Shown here: in pieces, positions 2,084 through 29,592 of the stretch
Layout of the letters: each line of letters opens with the position of its first letter
Position numbering within the stretch: the first letter of the stretch is position 1
Notes under the pieces: generated by a model
Seen by the model: the letters and a program-made list of their open reading frames with translations, nothing else
The model's database searches: none
What the model was told of the DNA's origin: nothing
Made by a program: the position numbers and the translations under genes
Assembly: GCF_030731595.1 (NCBI RefSeq)
Contig: NZ_JANQTS010000008.1
Span: 1 to 64,000, forward strand
Origin: Yoonia sp.
GTDB taxonomy: Bacteria; Pseudomonadota; Alphaproteobacteria; Rhodobacterales; Rhodobacteraceae
Direction of reading: 5' to 3'
DNA: 64,000 bases

Positions 2084-4090
2084 ATGGCTTATCTCTTGGG
2101 TGTGGACACTGGTGGAACCTATACCGATGCGGTTGTTCTGGATGAGGTGACCGACTCTGTTGTGGCCGCAGCCAAGGCGCTGACCTCGCGTCCTGATCTG
2201 GCTGTTGGTGTCGGGGCAGCGATAGATGCGGCCATTGCAAAGGCTGCCGTGGACGTGGCCGATATTGCGATGGTGTCGCTGTCAACGACTTTGGCCACCA
2301 ATGCACTTGTCGAGGGGCAGGGCGGGCGGATTGCCCTGATCGCGATTGGCTTTGACGACGCCGAGCTTGGCCGCGCGGGCCTGTCTGATGCTTTGCGTGG
2401 CGATCCAGTGATCCGGCTCTCGGGTGGCCATAATCATGCAGGCGGTGAGGCAGCAGCGCTTGATCTGGAGCATTTGCGTGGTGCTTTGGCGGGCCTTGAT
2501 GCAGGCATCACGGGCTTTGCTGTCGCCGCAAGCTTTGCGACCCGCAACCCCGCCCACGAGGTTGCCGTGCGTGACCTGATCCGCGACCAGACCGGCAAGC
2601 CTGTCAGCTGTTCGCATGAATTATCCCAAGCGCTGGGCGGGCCAAAGCGGGCGCTGACGGCGGTCTTGAATGCCCGCTTGATCGGGATGATCGACCGTCT
2701 GATCACCGCCTGCGAGGATCACCTTGCAAAAGTGGGGATCGCCGCCCGTCTGATGGTCGTGCGCGGCGATGGTGCTTTGGTCTCTGCCGCGATTGCCCGC
2801 GAAAAACCCATTGAAACGATCCTGAGTGGCCCTGCCGCATCCATCGCCGGGGCCAGTTGGCTGACCGGGGAAACCGATGCTTTGGTCAGTGATATCGGCG
2901 GGACCACGACCGATGTCTGCCTGCTGCGCGGCGGTCGTCCCAAGATCGACCCGCAAGGTGCGCGTGTCGGCCCGTTCCGTACGATGGTCGAGGCTGTCGC
3001 GATGCGCACGACCGGCCTTGGCGGCGATAGCGAAGTGCATGTGGTTGAGGGGCTGCATGGCGGGCTTCGGCTTGGTCCGCGTCGTTTGATGCCGATCTCG
3101 CTTGCTGCGCATCACTATCCCGATTTGGTGCATGCTACGCTTGATCGCGGTCTGGCGCAGGATATCCCTGCCACCGACGGCGGACAGTTCGTCATTCCGT
3201 TGTGGGAAACTTTGCCCGACGGATTGGACGCCCGCGAACTGGTGATCGCGCAGCGCTTGGTCGATGGCCCGCTGCGACTGGGCCATGTGGTGCAGTCGCG
3301 CATGGAAAGTCCGGCCTTGGCGCGGCTGGTCGGGCGCGGCCTGGTGATCTTGGCGGGGGTGACCCCGTCGGATGCCGCCCATGCGTCGGGTTTAGCGGAT
3401 GCATGGGATCGGGAGGCCGCGGAGAAAGCGCTGACTCTCTTCGCGCGTCGTCGCACGGGTGGCGGTGTGCGTGTGGCCCTGGATGGGCCGACCCTCGCAC
3501 GCCAGATTATTGACCAGCTGACCGTACAGACAGTGGACTGTCTTTTGCAGGCTGCATTTGCCGAGGATGATCTGGACTGGGCCGATCCTGCCGCATTGGC
3601 AAAGCATCCGCTGACAATGGCAGGGCTGGATCAGCATCAGGGTGTCGTTGAGGTTCAGATGTCGCTGGGTGTGCCGGTGATCGGGCTGGGGGCTTCTGCA
3701 TCCACATATTATGGCGCTGTCGGTGAACGGTTGCGCACCCGCATGATCTTGCCGGAACATGCGGGCGTCGCGAATGCGATTGGCGCTGTTGTGGGCCAAG
3801 TGCAGATGCAGGCCACGGGTACTGTGACAAGTGCGGGCGAAGGCGCCTTTGCCGTGCATTTGCCGCAAGGCCCACAAACCTTTGCAGATCGCGACGCCGC
3901 GATGGCTGCCTTAGAGCAGGCGCTGCAGGCGCAGGCAGGCGCGCAGGCGCGGGCCTCTGGTGTCGAGGAGATCCGTTTTGTCGTGTCCCGCGATGTGACC
4001 GAAATTGATGTCGAGGGCAGGCCGATGTTTATAGAGGCGACGATCAGGGTCGAGGCCAGCGGCCGGCCCCGGATTGCGAGCGAGGCTTGA
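2084..4090 (+). CDS. hydantoinase/oxoprolinase family protein (HyuA-like)
   Basis: A 668-residue protein of the HyuA / 5-oxoprolinase ATPase-fold family, which uses ATP to open cyclic amides such as hydantoins or 5-oxoproline. The N-terminal nucleotide motif is LLGVDTGGTYTDAVV, and a second phosphate-binding motif SDIGGTTTDVCLL lies near residue 270. The ATG at 2084, with AAGG 6-7 nt upstream, is preferred over the ORF-track start at 2018 because the protein family begins directly with the DTGGTYTD block. No HyuB partner follows, so it belongs to the stand-alone HyuA-like group. It is divergent from an M20 deacylase, which could process the opened product. Substrate unknown. Confidence 0.85.
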   Translation: MAYLLGVDTGGTYTDAVVLDEVTDSVVAAAKALTSRPDLAVGVGAAIDAAIAKAAVDVADIAMVSLSTTLATNALVEGQGGRIALIAIGFDDAELGRAGLSDALRGDPVIRLSGGHNHAGGEAAALDLEHLRGALAGLDAGITGFAVAASFATRNPAHEVAVRDLIRDQTGKPVSCSHELSQALGGPKRALTAVLNARLIGMIDRLITACEDHLAKVGIAARLMVVRGDGALVSAAIAREKPIETILSGPAASIAGASWLTGETDALVSDIGGTTTDVCLLRGGRPKIDPQGARVGPFRTMVEAVAMRTTGLGGDSEVHVVEGLHGGLRLGPRRLMPISLAAHHYPDLVHATLDRGLAQDIPATDGGQFVIPLWETLPDGLDARELVIAQRLVDGPLRLGHVVQSRMESPALARLVGRGLVILAGVTPSDAAHASGLADAWDREAAEKALTLFARRRTGGGVRVALDGPTLARQIIDQLTVQTVDCLLQAAFAEDDLDWADPAALAKHPLTMAGLDQHQGVVEVQMSLGVPVIGLGASASTYYGAVGERLRTRMILPEHAGVANAIGAVVGQVQMQATGTVTSAGEGAFAVHLPQGPQTFADRDAAMAALEQALQAQAGAQARASGVEEIRFVVSRDVTEIDVEGRPMFIEATIRVEASGRPRIASEA

Positions 4091-21336: not shown

Positions 21337-22263
21337 ATGGCTGAATATCAAAATATCTTCACACAAGTTCAGGTCCAAGGACCGGCCGAGATGGGCGTTG
21401 CTGCTGATGCAGACACCATGCGCGAGCGGACCACCGGAACCCGGTTCTCGACCCTTGCTGGTCTGTTCGGCAACGCTCAGATTGGTCCGGTCCATCTTGG
21501 GTCCTATGGCATGGTTGCCGTCATCGGTTTTGCCACATGGTTCTTTATCATCGGCATGAACTTCTGGGCGCAAGTAGACTATAGCCCAGGCGTGTTCATG
21601 CGGGATCTGTTCTGGCTGGCACTTGAGCCTCCAGGTCCAGAGTACGGGCTTGGGTTTGCACCTCTCAATGAAGGTGGATGGTGGCTTATTGCCAGCTTCT
21701 TCTTCCTGATCGGGTGCTGTGCCTGGTGGATGCGGACTTATACCCGCGCCAAGGCTCTGGGCATGGGGCTGCATGTGGCTTGGGCTTTTGCTGCCCTGCT
21801 GTGGCTGATCTTCGTTCTGGGTCTGATCCGGCCTGTCCTGATGGGATCGTGGTCAGAGGCTGTACCTTACGGCATCTTCCCGCACCTCGACTGGACCAAC
21901 CTGTTTTCGATCACCTACGGTAACCTGTTCTACAATCCGTTCCACGCGCTGAGCATTGCGTTCCTTTATGGTTCCGCCCTGCTGTTCGCGATGCACGGTG
22001 CAACGATCCTGGCTGTAAGCCGCTTTGGCGGTGAGCGCGAGATCGAGCAGATTGTGGACCGCGGCACCGCGACCGAACGTGCAGCATTGTTCTGGCGCTG
22101 GACCATGGGCTTTAACGCCACCATGGAAGGTATCCACCGCTGGGCGTGGTGGTTCGCAGTTCTGACCCCGCTGACAGGCGGTATCGGAATCCTGCTGACC
22201 GGTACGGTTGTTGACAACTGGTTTGTCTGGGCACAAATCCATGGCTATGCGCCAGTAAACTAA
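21337..22263 (+). CDS. pufM: photosynthetic reaction centre M subunit
   Basis: A 308-residue partner of PufL. It contains [35 protein letters not shown], with special-pair and iron-binding histidines, and [21 protein letters not shown], with the non-haem iron glutamate. AGGAGGG lies upstream of ATG 21337. The gene is followed by pufX and not by a pufC cytochrome gene, so the reaction centre probably uses a soluble or membrane-anchored electron donor. Confidence 0.97.
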
Positions 22264-22271
22264 GGAGAGAG

Positions 22272-22517
22272 ATGATGAGTGAACGCGAAAACATCCTCGA
22301 AATGAGCGAAAAGACACGGTTGTCTGCCGACATCACTTACCTGATGCTCAAAGGTGCAGGCTATGCAGCGATCTTTGTTCTGGCTGTGTGGTTCGTTATT
22401 GCGGCGATTGCCGGTATCGGACGTGCCTTGCCGGACGAAAGCCGCCAAACGCCTGATCCGATCAACCGCTCGTCGTCTCTGACGATCGAAGTGGTCGAAG
22501 ATACGGCAACCGTCTAG
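22272..22517 (+). CDS. pufX: PufX, LH1 ring-gating protein
   Basis: An 81-residue single-span protein. The diagnostic segment YLMLKGAGYAAIFVLAV followed by GRALPDESRQTPDPIN resembles Rhodobacter PufX (MKGAGW...GRMLP...APAPN). PufX opens the LH1 ring so that quinone can exchange and often promotes core dimers. AAGGAGAG precedes tandem ATGs at 22272 and 22275. The gene is last in pufQBALMX and is followed by two hairpins. Confidence 0.9.
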   Translation: MMSERENILEMSEKTRLSADITYLMLKGAGYAAIFVLAVWFVIAAIAGIGRALPDESRQTPDPINRSSSLTIEVVEDTATV

Positions 22518-22697: not shown

Positions 22698-24620
22698 ATG
22701 ACTATCCGCCCTGAAACACCCTTTCTCGATAATATTTCTGGTCCGGCTGACATCCGGCGCATGAACGATACGGCGATTGCCAATCTGGCCGACGACGTGC
22801 GTGCCGAGGTGATCTCGGCGGTGTCGGAAACGGGCGGGCATCTGGGATCTTCGCTGGGTGTGGTCGAGTTGACAGTCGCCATTCACGCCGTCTTTGACAC
22901 TCCGCGTGACAAACTGATCTTTGACGTCGGGCATCAGTGCTACCCCCACAAAGTCATCACTGGACGGCGCGACCGCATCCGGACGCTTCGCCAAGAGGGC
23001 GGTCTGTCAGGCTTTACCAAACGTGCCGAGAGCGAGTTTGATCCTTTTGGTGCGGCCCATTCAAGCACTTCGATTTCCGCGGCCCTTGGCTTTGCGGTCG
23101 GTCGCGATATGGGGATGCCCACAGGCGATGCGATTGCCGTGATCGGTGACGGTTCGATCAGTGCGGGCATGGCTTATGAGGCGATGAACAACGCAGGCGC
23201 CGAAGGGCGCCGCCTGTTTGTGATTCTCAACGACAACGAGATGTCGATTGCGCCCCCTGTTGGCGCAATGTCCAAATATCTCTCCGGTCTTTATGCCTCG
23301 CCCATGGGCGAGCTGCACAAGATGGCCGAAGGGTTCGAGGCCGCCTTGCCTGGTCCTTTGCGCGATCATGCCCGCCGCGCCCGCCATCTGGTGACGGGGA
23401 TGCAGACCGGTGGAACCGGAACCTTGTTCGAAGAACTTGGCTTTTCCTATGTCGGCCCGATTGATGGGCATGATATGTCGCAACTGCTGCCCGTGCTGCG
23501 GGCCGCACGCACCCGCGCGACTGGTCCTGTGCTGATCCATGTCTGCACAAGGAAAGGCAAAGGCTATGCCCCCGCCGAAACCAGCGCAGACCGTGGGCAT
23601 GGCGTGTCGAAATTTGATGTGGTCAGCGGTGCGCAGGCCAAATCGCGCCCGAATGCGCCAAGCTATACCAAAATCTTTGGGACCGCGCTGACGGTCGAGG
23701 CCCAGCACGATCCAAGCATTGTTGCCGTCACTGCTGCGATGCCATCGGGTACCGGCGTTGATATCATGGGTGCGCGCTTCAAGAACCGCGTGTTTGATGT
23801 GGGCATTGCCGAACAACACGGTGTGACCTTTGCCGCCGGCATGGCCGCCAGCGGGCTCAAGCCCTTTTGTGCGATCTATTCGACCTTCCTGCAACGTGGC
23901 TATGACCAAGTGGTCCATGATGTGGCCCTGCAAAACCTGCCGGTCCGCTTTGCGATTGACCGTGCGGGCCTTGTCGGTGCCGATGGCCCTACCCACGCAG
24001 GCGCATTCGATATCGGCTTTATGGCCGCCCTGCCTAATATGGTGGTGATGGCCGCAGGGGACGAACTGGAACTGATGCATATGGTCCGCACTGCTGCGGC
24101 TTATAACGAGGGCCCGATTGCTTTCCGCTATCCACGCGGCGAAGGGGTCGGGCTGGAACTGCCCGAGCGCGGCGAGATCATCGAGATCGGCAAAGGCCGG
24201 ATCGTGCAAGAGGGGTCCGACATCGCAATCCTGTCCTTTGGTGCGCATCTGGCGGAATGCCAGAAAGCGGCCGAGAAGCTGGCGGCACAGGGCGTTTCAA
24301 CCACCATCGCCGACGCGCGTTTCGCCAAACCGCTGGACCGCGCGCTGATCCGGCAGCTGCTGCGCAACCACAAAGCATTGATCACCGTGGAGCAAGGCGC
24401 AAAAGGCGGCTTTGGCGCGATGGTCCTGCATGATCTGGCCAATGACGGGTTGCTGGACGGGCGCTGCCAGGTGCGGACGATGACCCTACCGGACCGGTAC
24501 ATTGATCATGCAGCGCCGGATGCGATGTATGCGGACGCGGGTCTGACGGCAGTAGATATCGCCGCGACCGCGATGCAGGCGGCGGGGATTGAGGTCAAGC
24601 GGGTCGAGGTGGGCGTTTAG
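22698..24620 (+). CDS. dxs: 1-deoxy-D-xylulose-5-phosphate synthase
   Basis: A 640-residue thiamine-diphosphate enzyme that condenses pyruvate and glyceraldehyde 3-phosphate, the first step of the MEP isoprenoid pathway. The ThDP motif is [19 protein letters not shown], and the transketolase-type central domain starts near [12 protein letters not shown]. The C-terminal domain carries [17 protein letters not shown] 22698 has AAAGG upstream. It sits downstream of pufX, as in R. capsulatus, and provides precursors for carotenoids, quinones and the bacteriochlorophyll tail. Confidence 0.95.
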
Positions 24621-24665: not shown

Positions 24666-25778
24666 TTACAGTGGGTCTGTTTGAAATAGCCACACTTTCA
24701 GCCCGCCGTGCGGGATGGGTGCGCCTTTCGGTTTGAACGGCAGGCCTGTTGCTTTGGCCAGACCTGTTTCGCTCGTCACGATCCCGACCCGCCAACCTAT
24801 AAACCTGTCCCGAAGCGTTTCGCCTAGGCTGGCATAGAGACCATAGAGAAGTTTCGGGTTACCTATCCGTCCTCCATAGGGCGGGTTGCAGATGATCAGA
24901 CCCGGCGGGCCTTCGGGGCGTTGGATGTCGCTGGCAGAGAGGTTTTCGAACGTGATCAGGTCGCTGACATCCGCCCGCTCAGCGTTGGCGCGGCTCATGC
25001 GGATGGCGCCTGCATCGCGGTCGCTGCCATAGAAATGGGGGATGTCGGCGCGGTGGACAGGGAACTGTTTGCGCATCGCCTCCCACTTGACCGCATCAAA
25101 GGTCGCGAGTTGTTCGAAGGCAAAGCTACGACTGCGCCCGGGGTTCAGCCCCAGCGCAATCTCGGCGGCTTCGATCAGGAAGGTGCCCGATCCGCACATC
25201 GGGTCCAGTACCGGTTCATGCCCGGTATAGCCGCATTCGCGCAGCATCAGGGCGGCGAGCGTTTCGCGCATGGGCGCTTTGCCGACAGCCTCTTTATGAC
25301 CACGCTTGTGCAGGCTTTCGCCCGAGGTATCGAGGCTGATCGTCACCCGGTTGTCGTCGATCCGGACCTTGATCACGATTTGCGCGTCGGGGCTGATGGT
25401 CATGCCGTGGCTGTCTTTCAGCGCGGTTTCGATCCGTTGGGTCGCGGCGCCTGCGTGATAGATGTGGGATTTCTTGGAGGTGCTGACCTCGACCCGCACA
25501 GGCACATCGGCCCGCAGGATATCGCCCCACGGAAACTTGCGAGACCGTTTGTCCAGTTGCGCCAGATGGAAGGCCATGAAGCTGCCAACACGGGCCAGTA
25601 CGCGGGTCGCCCCGCGCATCACAAGATTGGCGCGCCAGACATCTTCCCACGTGCCTTGAAAGGTGACGCCGCCTTGGGTCACGGCGGCTCCGGCAAATCC
25701 TTTCTCCAGCGCCTCTGCATACAGGGCGGCTTCGAGTCCGGGTGTTGCGGTGAGGAAGATCTCAAAGGTCTCGGTCAT
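24666..25778 (-). CDS. THUMP-domain class I SAM-dependent RNA methyltransferase (RlmL/YpsC-type)
   Basis: About 370 residues. The N-terminus MTETFEIFLTATPGLEAALYAE and the region to residue ~160 form a ferredoxin-like plus THUMP RNA-binding module. The methyltransferase follows with VLDPMCGSGTFLIEAAEIA (SAM motif I) and LIICNPPYGGRIG (motif IV NPPY, base-methylating). The ATG at 25778 is preferred over the ORF-track start at 25847. By family it probably makes an m2G-type modification in 23S rRNA; the exact base is not readable. It converges with dxs, with a 45-nt gap. Confidence 0.85.
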   Translation of the reverse strand: MTETFEIFLTATPGLEAALYAEALEKGFAGAAVTQGGVTFQGTWEDVWRANLVMRGATRVLARVGSFMAFHLAQLDKRSRKFPWGDILRADVPVRVEVSTSKKSHIYHAGAATQRIETALKDSHGMTISPDAQIVIKVRIDDNRVTISLDTSGESLHKRGHKEAVGKAPMRETLAALMLRECGYTGHEPVLDPMCGSGTFLIEAAEIALGLNPGRSRSFAFEQLATFDAVKWEAMRKQFPVHRADIPHFYGSDRDAGAIRMSRANAERADVSDLITFENLSASDIQRPEGPPGLIICNPPYGGRIGNPKLLYGLYASLGETLRDRFIGWRVGIVTSETGLAKATGLPFKPKGAPIPHGGLKVWLFQTDPL

Positions 25779-25830
25779 GCGATCTGCATAGGGGTGTTTA
25801 TGGGCCAGATGCAAACGGCAATCGCAAGCA

Positions 25831-27240
25831 TCAAAAGTTCGATTCAATCCCCATCAGAAACTGCACCGTCGAAGACGTGTTTTCCTCGGCACTTGATTCT
25901 GTACGTCGCGCCGAAAGTGTCACGCTGGGCGAGAACCCGAAGTAGGTAAATTCAACGAAGGTTGCGTTGACTTCCGCACCCACAAAGCGGTCGCGACGCC
26001 CGTCCAGTGTTGTCGTAAACTCGGGGTAGTCGCGGTAACCCACCTGCATCGAGGTCGAAAGCCGTGTGCCAGCGATAGGCTCTGCAAGGCCATAGCCAAA
26101 GCCAATCTGGTATTCATCAAAAGAGCCCTCCGGTCCGGCCTCGCGCTGTCGGTATAGAAAACTCAGCTGGAAAAGATCATTATTCGCCAGACCGCGATTG
26201 TAGCTGCCAGTCCAATCGTATGTTTTTGAATCCAGCAAGAACGGTGTCAAAGATTGCTGATCGCGGAACGAGACCCCTAGATTGATTGATGTATCAGGAT
26301 CAATCGGGAACGTCTGCTGCAGATCCAGATCCTGATAATCCACCAGTCTTTCACCACCTTCCCAAAAGGTCCCGAAACTGATGCCAGCACTGACGGGGCC
26401 AAAGGGGCTGATGTTGTTTTGTCTGCGCCTGAGGCCGATCTCGGCGACAAGGGTCGCGAAATCCCGACCTTCAACATCCCTGACGGCTGTGATTGGCGAC
26501 GACTCAAGCAGGTCTTTGGACTCTGACGAGAGCAGATAGGTTTCCCCTGACAGCCGCCCGGTCAAAGAAGTGATTTGGGACGCGTCTTGAGACAGGCGGT
26601 AGTCAAGGTCTGCGCCGATTGCAAAGGCGATGCCGGACAAAGCGCGCCGGTCTTCGGGTAGTTCAAAGGTCAATCCAATGCTCTCCAGACGCAAGATACC
26701 GTCATTTGAGCCGTTATTGATGTTGTCGGTGGGCGCCACGAAAGCGGTAAACTCTACCGAAAGCGGATTGGCACGCACGGTGTTGATATAGGCAAGCACA
26801 ATTGACTGCGCGTCCTGTTCGGTTTGAGCGTGGTTCGCAGCCCGGCGCAGCCAGAATTCCGATCTGACGTATTGGGCGTTCTGAAAGCGTGCACTGGCGA
26901 TGAGCCGTGCGGCTTGAAACCGTGCCTCCTCTGTGGCCGCGATGTCATAGGCGCGCTGCCCAGTGGCAGCAGCTTCTTCCAAGTTTCCAAGTTCCATCTG
27001 CGCCAGACCCAAGAGGTACAGCCCAACAAAACTGTCTGGGCTGGTTGCGAGGATTTCGCCCGCAATGACCACAGTTTGCGCAGGATCCCCTGCAACAAGT
27101 GCTGATTCCGCCCGCTCTTGCAGGTCCGGCAGAGCCGATGCGGGCGTTGTCCAGATACTTGCGCATAGCAAGACAGCCCGTTTGAGATTCGTCTTCTTCA
27201 CCACCACGACACTTTCTACGTCAGCCGCCAGCATGAACAT
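25831..27240 (-). CDS. Slam-like TPR plus outer-membrane beta-barrel protein
   Basis: About 469 residues. A signal-like segment (KRAVLLCASIWTTPASA) is followed by alpha-helical repeats with TPR character (AGEILATSPDSFVGLYLLGL, then AQMELGNLEEAAATGQRAY). From about residue 180 it has beta-rich sequence with alternating hydrophobics ending in a terminal Phe (MGIESNF), typical of an outer-membrane barrel. This order matches the DUF560/Slam family that moves lipoproteins to the cell surface. The start is uncertain: ATG 27240, ATG 27234 or GTG 27207. It is divergent from two lipoprotein genes with CAP-type sequence, which are candidate cargos. The Slam assignment rests on architecture and is not proven. 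Confidence 0.62.
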   Translation of the reverse strand: MFMLAADVESVVVVKKTNLKRAVLLCASIWTTPASALPDLQERAESALVAGDPAQTVVIAGEILATSPDSFVGLYLLGLAQMELGNLEEAAATGQRAYDIAATEEARFQAARLIASARFQNAQYVRSEFWLRRAANHAQTEQDAQSIVLAYINTVRANPLSVEFTAFVAPTDNINNGSNDGILRLESIGLTFELPEDRRALSGIAFAIGADLDYRLSQDASQITSLTGRLSGETYLLSSESKDLLESSPITAVRDVEGRDFATLVAEIGLRRRQNNISPFGPVSAGISFGTFWEGGERLVDYQDLDLQQTFPIDPDTSINLGVSFRDQQSLTPFLLDSKTYDWTGSYNRGLANNDLFQLSFLYRQREAGPEGSFDEYQIGFGYGLAEPIAGTRLSTSMQVGYRDYPEFTTTLDGRRDRFVGAEVNATFVEFTYFGFSPSVTLSARRTESSAEENTSSTVQFLMGIESNF

Positions 27241-27398
27241 TCTTTCTATCTTCAACAAGCGCAGGGCGCTTCTGCGCAAGCATTTGCAAAGACTGCATAA
27301 ATTATAAGCGGAATGCTGCCGTCTGTTGCCGCAACGTGTGATTTTAATTTTGTCATAACGCGGTTGGCCTTAGCAATGTCGTCGGGGCAAGGAGAATC

Positions 27399-27929
27399 AT
27401 GATGAAGAAGTATGTGACTGTTTGTGCATTGATGGCGCTGCCCGCGTGTTTTGGCGTGGGCAACGGGGTCGATCTGACACCAACCCGTCCGGTGGAAGAC
27501 GTGACCAGTCAAGCGCAAGCGTCGTTGGATGGCCTGCGCGCTGCAAATCTCGCTTCGCTCCAATTCGATTCAAGGGTCGGTCTTATCGTGCAGAATCACG
27601 CCAACGACATGTTCAACCGAAACTATCTGAGCATTTTTGAGGCCGGCTCTGACGTTGGAGGTGGTGTGGAGCGCGATCTCGGCGATGATCTCAATGATGC
27701 AGGACTGCCATGGGATGAGATTGTCCAGATGGTTGCTCAGGGTGATTTAGCGGTCAGCGAAGTTATGACAGGGTTTGCAACCACCGGCAGCGCAGCGGGA
27801 AGTCAGGGCAGCAATCAGGTTGATTTGGCAAATGCCTTGGCCAGTGAAGACTATGAGCTCTTCGGGCTTGGAAAAGCGGGAACAGGAGCTGATGTGCGTT
27901 GGGCACTCTTGCTGGTAGATCCGCAGTAG
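27399..27929 (+). CDS. lipoprotein with degenerate CAP (SCP/PR-1) domain
   Basis: A 176-residue predicted lipoprotein: MKKYVTVCALMALPAC gives a signal peptide and lipobox LPAC. AAGGAG lies just upstream of tandem ATGs at 27399 and 27402. The rest resembles the CAP lipoprotein encoded next to it: SRVGLIVQNHANDMFNRNYL parallels its SRLGVAAQRHADDMLAGNFF, and the C-terminus FGLGKAGTGADVRWALLLV parallels FALAKAGTGSQQYWVLVLA. The second histidine and the Glu-Asn motif of CAP proteins are missing, so the pocket is probably not functional as in YkwD-type proteins. It lies divergent from the Slam-like gene. Confidence 0.68.
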   Translation: MMKKYVTVCALMALPACFGVGNGVDLTPTRPVEDVTSQAQASLDGLRAANLASLQFDSRVGLIVQNHANDMFNRNYLSIFEAGSDVGGGVERDLGDDLNDAGLPWDEIVQMVAQGDLAVSEVMTGFATTGSAAGSQGSNQVDLANALASEDYELFGLGKAGTGADVRWALLLVDPQ

Positions 27930-28127
27930 AAAAGCGGAGTGGTCTACAGGGTCTCTTTGCGGCCTGCCTGGGGATGTCCTGCTGAAACAACCAAAGCGTT
28001 CCTTTATTTGCAGGCAGATCGCCGGACTGGGTCGTTAAGTGGGAACTCTGGTCTGCATGTCATTGAGTGAGTAGTCTTTTTGTTTCTTCAAACACCGTCC
28101 GCAACAGTTGACTGAAAGGTTTAGGCA

Positions 28128-28643
28128 ATGAAAAGAGCAGTCTGCATCCTTGCGATATCCATACTCGCGGCCTGCGGTAGTGCCGGTACCGGTACCGGTA
28201 CCGATGATAGCATCGACACCAGTGCGAGCGCCACCGCACGATCGCTTGTCGCGATCAGCAATGCCCCTGACCGTTCCTTTGCCAGCATGTTGAACAGTGT
28301 CCGGTCTGTAAATGGCGCGGCACCTGTGACCTACGATTCCAGACTAGGTGTCGCCGCCCAAAGGCATGCCGATGATATGTTGGCAGGGAATTTCTTTAGC
28401 CACACCGGTAGCGATGGATCAACAGTAGGGACGCGCGTGACGGCTGCAGGCTATAACTGGCAGCGCGTAGGCGAAAACATCGGGCGGGGTCAGGACGACG
28501 AGGAAGATATCTTGCGCGCTTGGGTGAATTCTTCGGGCCATCAAGCCAACAATGTTGACCCGCGTTTTGAAGACTTCGCGCTCGCAAAAGCCGGGACTGG
28601 ATCGCAGCAATATTGGGTCCTGGTCCTTGCCAGAGAATTCTAG
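28128..28643 (+). CDS. CAP-domain (SCP/YkwD-like) lipoprotein
   Basis: A 171-residue lipoprotein. The signal and lipobox are in MKRAVCILAISILAAC, followed by a Gly-Thr linker encoded by a GGTACC hexamer repeat. A complete CAP domain follows: RHADDMLAGNFFSHTGSDGS (two pocket histidines), GENIGRGQDDEEDILRAWVNSSGH (Glu-Asn and second His-containing element) and YWVLVLAREF at the C-terminus. Bacterial CAP proteins are secreted or surface proteins of mostly unknown function. About 200 nt separates it from the upstream degenerate paralogue. Its proximity to a Slam-like gene suggests surface display, which is inference. Confidence 0.85.
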   Translation: MKRAVCILAISILAACGSAGTGTGTDDSIDTSASATARSLVAISNAPDRSFASMLNSVRSVNGAAPVTYDSRLGVAAQRHADDMLAGNFFSHTGSDGSTVGTRVTAAGYNWQRVGENIGRGQDDEEDILRAWVNSSGHQANNVDPRFEDFALAKAGTGSQQYWVLVLAREF

Positions 28644-28743: not shown

Positions 28744-29529
28744 TTAGCGCGGCACATCCCTGACCATCGTCCGTGAAGGTGCGGCCTCTGGTTTTGGGTT
28801 GGGCTTTGCAATGCCTTCCAACGCTTTGAAAGGTTTGCGTACGGCCTCGGTCAGGCCTGGCCTTGTGGGGGCTGCCATCTGCTTGCTGACTTCGACGATC
28901 AACACACCACCTGCCGCGACAACAGGCATCTTGCGCCCGACCGTTTCCAGAAAACCTGCCGATTTACGCCAGACCTTCCTGGCCGACGGCGGTTGGTAGA
29001 GCGTGGACATCGTCCGCTCGGTCACGAATTGATGGCGGCGCAACTGTGCCTCGAGTTGGCCAAGCGAATAAGGCCGGCCGTAGCCAAAGGGCGTCGCATC
29101 CGACCGTGACCAAAGCCCTGCGCGGTTGGGCACGATGAACACTGCCCGCCCGCCCGGGCCCAGCACGCGCCATGCCTCGTCCAACAAGACCGAGGGCTGT
29201 TCTGTGGTTTCCAGCCCGTGAAGCATGACGAGCCGGTCCACCTTGCCGGTTTCAATCGGCCAAAGCGTGTCTTCACACAGGACGCTGACGTTCTTTCCAT
29301 CCGCAGGCCAAGGCATGACCCCTTGTGGTCCGGGCATCAGCCCGATCACCCGCCGCGCGTCTTTCAGGAAAGGCCGCAGCAACGGCAGGGCAAAGCCGAA
29401 CCCCACCACCATATGTCCTTTGGTATCGGGCCACATCGCGACCAGTTCATCCCGGATCACCTTTTGCGCCGCGCGCCCCAGCGCGCTGCGATAGTAGAAA
29501 TTTCGGAGATCAAGAACGTCCAGATGCAT
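28744..29529 (-). CDS. class I SAM-dependent methyltransferase (substrate unknown)
   Basis: About 261 residues. The SAM-binding region is degenerate at motif I ([16 protein letters not shown]), with a methyltransferase type-11-like segment [34 protein letters not shown] 29529 ([15 protein letters not shown]) is preferred; the ORF-track start at 29553 lies over a Shine-Dalgarno-like AAGGAG. The N-terminal [16 protein letters not shown] block is typical of a methyltransferase next to gloB in Rhodobacterales. It is divergent from gloB with a 63-nt gap. The methyl acceptor cannot be inferred. Confidence 0.75.
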
Positions 29530-29592
29530 TGCGGTTTGCGGCTCCTTGGGCAAAGCTGTGGGGTAAGCATAACAAGAGAAGGCAGGTATTCC

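Follow-up and report, generated by a model that had tools for sequence, protein, structure and literature searches.

A Yoonia sp. contig (NZ_JANQTS010000008.1 of assembly GCF_030731595.1), of which a stretch of 64,000 nt was analyzed (the window), encodes an outer-membrane protein of the Slam (type XI secretion, T11SS) family. We consider it likely that this exporter has switched its cargo to CAP lipoproteins, which lack the TbpB-type targeting barrel, with their export being putative. Two elements of this reading are well supported. The barrel protein is a true, divergent member of the Slam/T11SS family (SlipAM, DUF560) and sister to the described roseobacter T11SS, and, judged from gene comparisons, the adjacent partners of its clade form a new and conserved class for a Slam. 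Accounts of how Slams recognise cargo have so far centred on a single domain, an 8-stranded barrel at the C-terminus. If the reading is true, CAP-domain lipoproteins are a T11SS cargo class for which no description was found in the literature; searches for T11SS together with CAP returned nothing.

The Slam gene (25831–27279, minus strand) lies head-to-head with two lipobox genes on the plus strand, lipoprotein 1 (27399–27929) and lipoprotein 2 (28128–28643). The first-pass annotation had described exactly this arrangement, a TPR-plus-barrel protein ending in Phe and divergent from two lipobox genes, and the open reading frames at the same coordinates, the lipoboxes (ALPAC in lipoprotein 1, LAAC in lipoprotein 2), the protein's C-terminus (...GIESNF) and the AF2 model all agree with it. 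The first codons of the listed barrel frame are probably untranslated, as the sequence points to GTG at 27207 as the probable true start, from which a normal signal peptide follows (VVKKTNLKRAVLLCASIWTTPASA). With this start, the divergent intergenic region between the Slam gene and lipoprotein 1 (27208–27398, read from the sequence) would span about 190 bp. Two methyltransferase genes, both on the minus strand, bound the cassette and form the edges of what is an empty site in other genomes: an RlmL-like RNA methyltransferase (24666–25847; Pfam UPF0020, RlmL_1st) and a SAM methyltransferase (28744–29553; Pfam Methyltransf_11). The end of a photosynthesis operon is found directly upstream of the Slam/CAP cassette. 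Its stretch at 21337–22517 encodes a reaction-centre protein that is probably PufM (Photo_RC, 1.3e-100) and, after it, PufX (8.8e-31); a dxs-like gene follows at 22698–24620.

The family of the barrel protein emerges from profiles across its relatives. The window protein itself scores 21.8 bits against the Pfam SlipAM profile (DUF560), slightly short of the curated cut-off of 22, which counts against the assignment. SlipAM matches 15 of the 25 window-clade members (best E 6.1e-6) and, above the cut-off, 24 of the 29 members of the sister clade (best E 1.9e-10), with which the window clade aligns over its full length (E 2.6e-99). It is the sole recurring barrel profile, and the earlier label "Slam-like" is upheld on these grounds. 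A porin or CsgG-like protein, named in the first-pass annotation as the identity that would overturn this label, is not what the family profiles indicate; they point to Slam/SlipAM instead. An AF2 model, for which the window protein and 64 relatives served as input, has a mean pLDDT of 88.9 and is unreliable before residue 47. It places TPR helices at residues 49–170 (26770–27135), where Pfam TPR profiles (TPR_19, TPR_16) match as well, followed by a barrel domain (25834–26763) of 14 long strands between residues 173 and 480, mostly above 90 in pLDDT and ending in the C-terminal Phe. The published Slam layout is likewise a TPR domain plus 14 strands (PMC5449769, PMC7857515).

TPR-plus-barrel proteins also occur among polymer exporters of the BcsC/PelB kind, and the top matches of the barrel model in a Foldseek search against the PDB were BcsC (5.5e-11) and PelBC (2.8e-8), which share this layout, along with porins. 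As these rather than a Slam were returned, fold comparison alone cannot name the barrel family. The TM-scores are low (0.28–0.41), no solved Slam is among the matches listed for comparison, and the barrel protein's sequence, compared with those of solved structures, gave only TPR-type and chance matches. Since the family profiles favour SlipAM and polysaccharide synthesis genes were not recognised beside the barrel gene, we regard a polymer exporter instead of a Slam as very improbable.

The two neighbouring lipoproteins differ in how clearly they belong to the CAP family. Lipoprotein 2, with a lipobox, a Gly/Thr-rich tether and a CAP domain (28287–28622), matches Pfam CAP (PF00188) at E 3.8e-18 and 66.9 bits (cut-off 21.1), and both it and its class keep the conserved His/Glu motifs SH, GEN and GH. 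In alignment, these motifs are missing from lipoprotein 1 and its class, and a Pfam search with lipoprotein 1 itself gave no match. It is, however, homologous to lipoprotein 2 (phmmer, 4e-10), bridging relatives match Pfam CAP (6.7e-9 and 2.9e-5), and the best fold matches of its AF2 model (pLDDT 86.4) are SCP/CAP structures. Lipoprotein 1 is thus most probably a CAP paralogue stripped of the conserved motifs, a pseudo-CAP. The first-pass view of both neighbours as CAP/SCP-type therefore stands in full for lipoprotein 2, while for lipoprotein 1 it holds only in the sense of a degenerate CAP, a degeneration that the annotation had missed. All CAP-type partners examined carry a lipobox, and the adjacent lipoproteins consist of single CAP domains, with no TbpB/fHbp-type 8-stranded barrel in any of them. 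Counterparts of lipoprotein 2 beside the Slam in relatives are 49–65% identical to it. More distant CAP genes, 42–45% identical to lipoprotein 2, stand in tandem in a genome without a window-type Slam (G178:C1:787326-788447).

A Slam homologue was found in about half of the 397 family genomes sampled. To the genus sample (Yoonia/Loktanella) belong 57 genomes, 28 of which carry the Slam and 29 do not. A CAP or pseudo-CAP lipoprotein adjoins the Slam in all 28 carriers, and a CAP-type lipoprotein stands beside it in 24 of the 24 named window-clade loci, a constancy that argues against chance pairing. Genes of the CAP2 class (at least 150 bits) occur in 27 of the 28 carriers and in none of the 29 non-carriers (Fisher 2e-15, uncorrected for descent). 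In one carrier (G191) the CAP2-class gene lies about 77 kb away while the pseudo-CAP still adjoins the Slam; another (G155) has the pseudo-CAP only. The order of the genes varies: the CAP genes are either divergent from the Slam or convergent on its other side (L079–L081, L087), and at one locus (L084, 3164–5967) CAP-type lipoprotein genes flank the Slam on both sides, which is likely an intermediate between the two orders. The pair also recurs in unrelated surroundings, such as a locus with hisB as neighbour (L083) and one in Cognatishimia (L090), giving at least three genomic contexts in all. Conservation of the gene pair, proposed as a check in the first-pass annotation, which also named a lack of co-occurrence as refuting its idea, thus extends to all relatives examined and across rearrangements.

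The same site in genomes without the Slam indicates how the genes travel. The flanking methyltransferase genes are −7 to 70 bp apart in 14 non-carriers, compared to at least 1997 bp in carriers, and because of these near-abutting flanks we regard the Slam and CAP genes as gained or lost as a unit. Such presence and absence as a unit at one site needs no direct interaction between the products, and the pair could be linked only by shared regulation or cassette inheritance, with the barrel not acting on the CAP proteins. We judge this improbable, as adjacency outlasts changes in gene order, a two-sided duplication and at least three genomic contexts, and the class of the partner follows the Slam clade. 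Divergence is correlated as well: the Slam and the CAP protein evolve faster than the flanks, with mean distances of 0.57 and 0.44 against 0.24 and 0.17, and their distances remain associated after controlling for those of the flanking genes (partial r 0.53, with shared descent uncorrected). Taken over arrangements, empty sites and correlated divergence, the Slam–CAP link looks functional.

The sister clade provides the counterpart. Its locus is composed of thyX, a lipoprotein, the Slam, gloA and DUF1194, and the adjacent lipoproteins match FHBP_C (1.1e-6) and TbpB_B_D (6.2e-7), to which the targeting barrel of known Slam cargo belongs. A TbpB-like neighbour is present in 55 of 56 sister loci, the exception starting close to a contig end, and a CAP neighbour in none of the 56, whereas none of the 24 named window-clade loci has a TbpB-like neighbour of the Slam. 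The partner classes split on one branch of a maximum-likelihood tree (support 100/99; 0 of 500 shuffles). The switch thus happened only once in evolution, which counts against the reading. CAP pairing throughout the clade suggests that the exporter has taken up a different sort of cargo, and the proposal in the first-pass annotation that the CAP lipoproteins represent a different cargo class fits these sequence data well.

The chief reservation about this reading is that a classical cargo may be encoded elsewhere in the genome. An unlinked TbpB_B_D lipoprotein is present (C94, L216 1468–2289, minus strand; E 2.1e-7), its gene adjoining that of an RTX/Peptidase_M10 protein (2289–3362), and so is a second, canonical-type Slam without an adjacent lipoprotein (C110, L002 380–1939, plus strand). 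Neither this second Slam nor the unlinked TbpB-type lipoprotein featured in the first-pass annotation. The C94 lipoprotein is a possible cargo of either Slam of this genome. Its relatives are enriched in carriers (16 of 28 versus 3 of 29 non-carriers, in a single-sequence search), so a classical cargo may exist, or persist, for the window Slam. This would leave the CAP lipoproteins as periplasmic accessories, for instance peptidoglycan-binding ones like DalA at the divisome. An unlinked cargo is plausible since many canonical Slams of the genus are likewise orphans with no lipoprotein alongside, and a periplasmic CAP is possible because DalA, a distantly CAP-related outer-membrane lipoprotein, binds peptidoglycan (PMC10470522). 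Nevertheless, the single-sequence search detected no relative of the C94 lipoprotein in 12 of the 28 carriers, while a CAP-type partner is adjacent in 28 of 28, which makes this explanation less likely. Moreover, the canonical Slam C110 could serve the C94 lipoprotein, and DalA itself is a separate gene in this genome (C128). Overall, we consider it unlikely that the window Slam exports the C94 lipoprotein with the CAP proteins confined to the periplasm. A tendency of carriers to give up the TbpB-like partner of their canonical Slam was also considered and dropped for lack of a clear rule, as 5 of 20 carriers still have that partner, compared with 9 of 18 non-carriers.

Returning to a Slam with CAP cargo, Slams are known to translocate lipoproteins in unfolded form through the outer membrane, aided by periplasmic Skp (PMC9090332). 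From this established biology, we infer that the CAP lipoproteins enter the Slam path, and with it their export, their surface location and the existence of a recognition signal. CAP and pseudo-CAP would both be made as lipoproteins, with the Lol route delivering them to the outer membrane. There, the Slam, with its TPR domain in the periplasm and its 14-stranded barrel in the outer membrane, would pass the adjacent lipoproteins on to the surface of the cell, and a Gly/Ser/Thr-rich tether, together with the lipid, would hold the single CAP domain in place. The linker is rich in Gly, the 10 residues behind the Cys averaging 4.3 Gly in the CAP partners and 1.8 in DalA. The T11SS cargo described to date in the literature consulted is characterised by the C-terminal 8-stranded barrel (PMC12282271), usual in adjacent cargo but a trait of the cargo and not of the exporter, and its absence from the CAP proteins counts against the switch. 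As these proteins comprise a lipobox, a tether and a CAP domain only, the Slam would have to read something other than a TbpB/fHbp-type barrel, the candidate signals being the CAP fold or the tether. We lean slightly towards this fuller version, in which the exporter recognises and moves the CAP lipoproteins through some signal distinct from the TbpB-type barrel and motif-bearing and motif-less CAPs are displayed together on the surface; both parts are putative.

Such a signal would bear on a question already raised in the field. In a 2025 survey of marine T11SS, cluster 3 exporters rarely had the barrel nearby, and its authors raised the possibility of further targeting domains (PMC12282271). 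The window clade and its sister clade represent a natural experiment, and because the partner class separates these near relatives so sharply, exchanging the partners of a CAP-paired Slam and a TbpB-paired one would be informative on what the exporter reads.

Several known systems resemble parts of the locus. BB0689, an outer-surface protein of Borrelia with a CAP fold (PDB 4d53), is the second-best fold match of lipoprotein 1, though just 12% identical to it; a Slam homologue was not found in Borrelia (PMC7857515). The divisome-associated lipoprotein DalA (PMC10470522, NF052539) is profile-related to lipoprotein 2 (E 1.1e-20). Identity of the two was rejected, as lipoprotein 2 scores 74.1 bits against a cut-off of 200 and the genome encodes its actual DalA elsewhere, as the C128 protein (244.6 bits). 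Slam1 and Slam2 of Neisseria (PMC5449769, PMC9090332) share with the window protein an N-terminal TPR domain, a 14-stranded SlipAM/DUF560 barrel and adjacent lipoprotein genes, the latter being common but not strictly required (about 52% of Slams; PMC5449769). In contrast to these Neisseria systems, the adjacent lipoproteins of the window are a CAP and a pseudo-CAP with no TbpB-type barrel, and export is only putative. The marine cluster 3 T11SS described by Grossman and colleagues (PMC12282271) occur in the same bacterial families as the window (Rhodobacteraceae/Roseobacteraceae); the terms "CAP domain", "SCP" and "cysteine-rich secretory" are absent from the main text of that survey. The sister clade shares the cluster 3 locus of thyX, lipoprotein, Slam, gloA and DUF1194, whereas the window clade falls outside it, having no gloA, thyX or DUF1194 neighbours and pairing its Slam with CAP partners.
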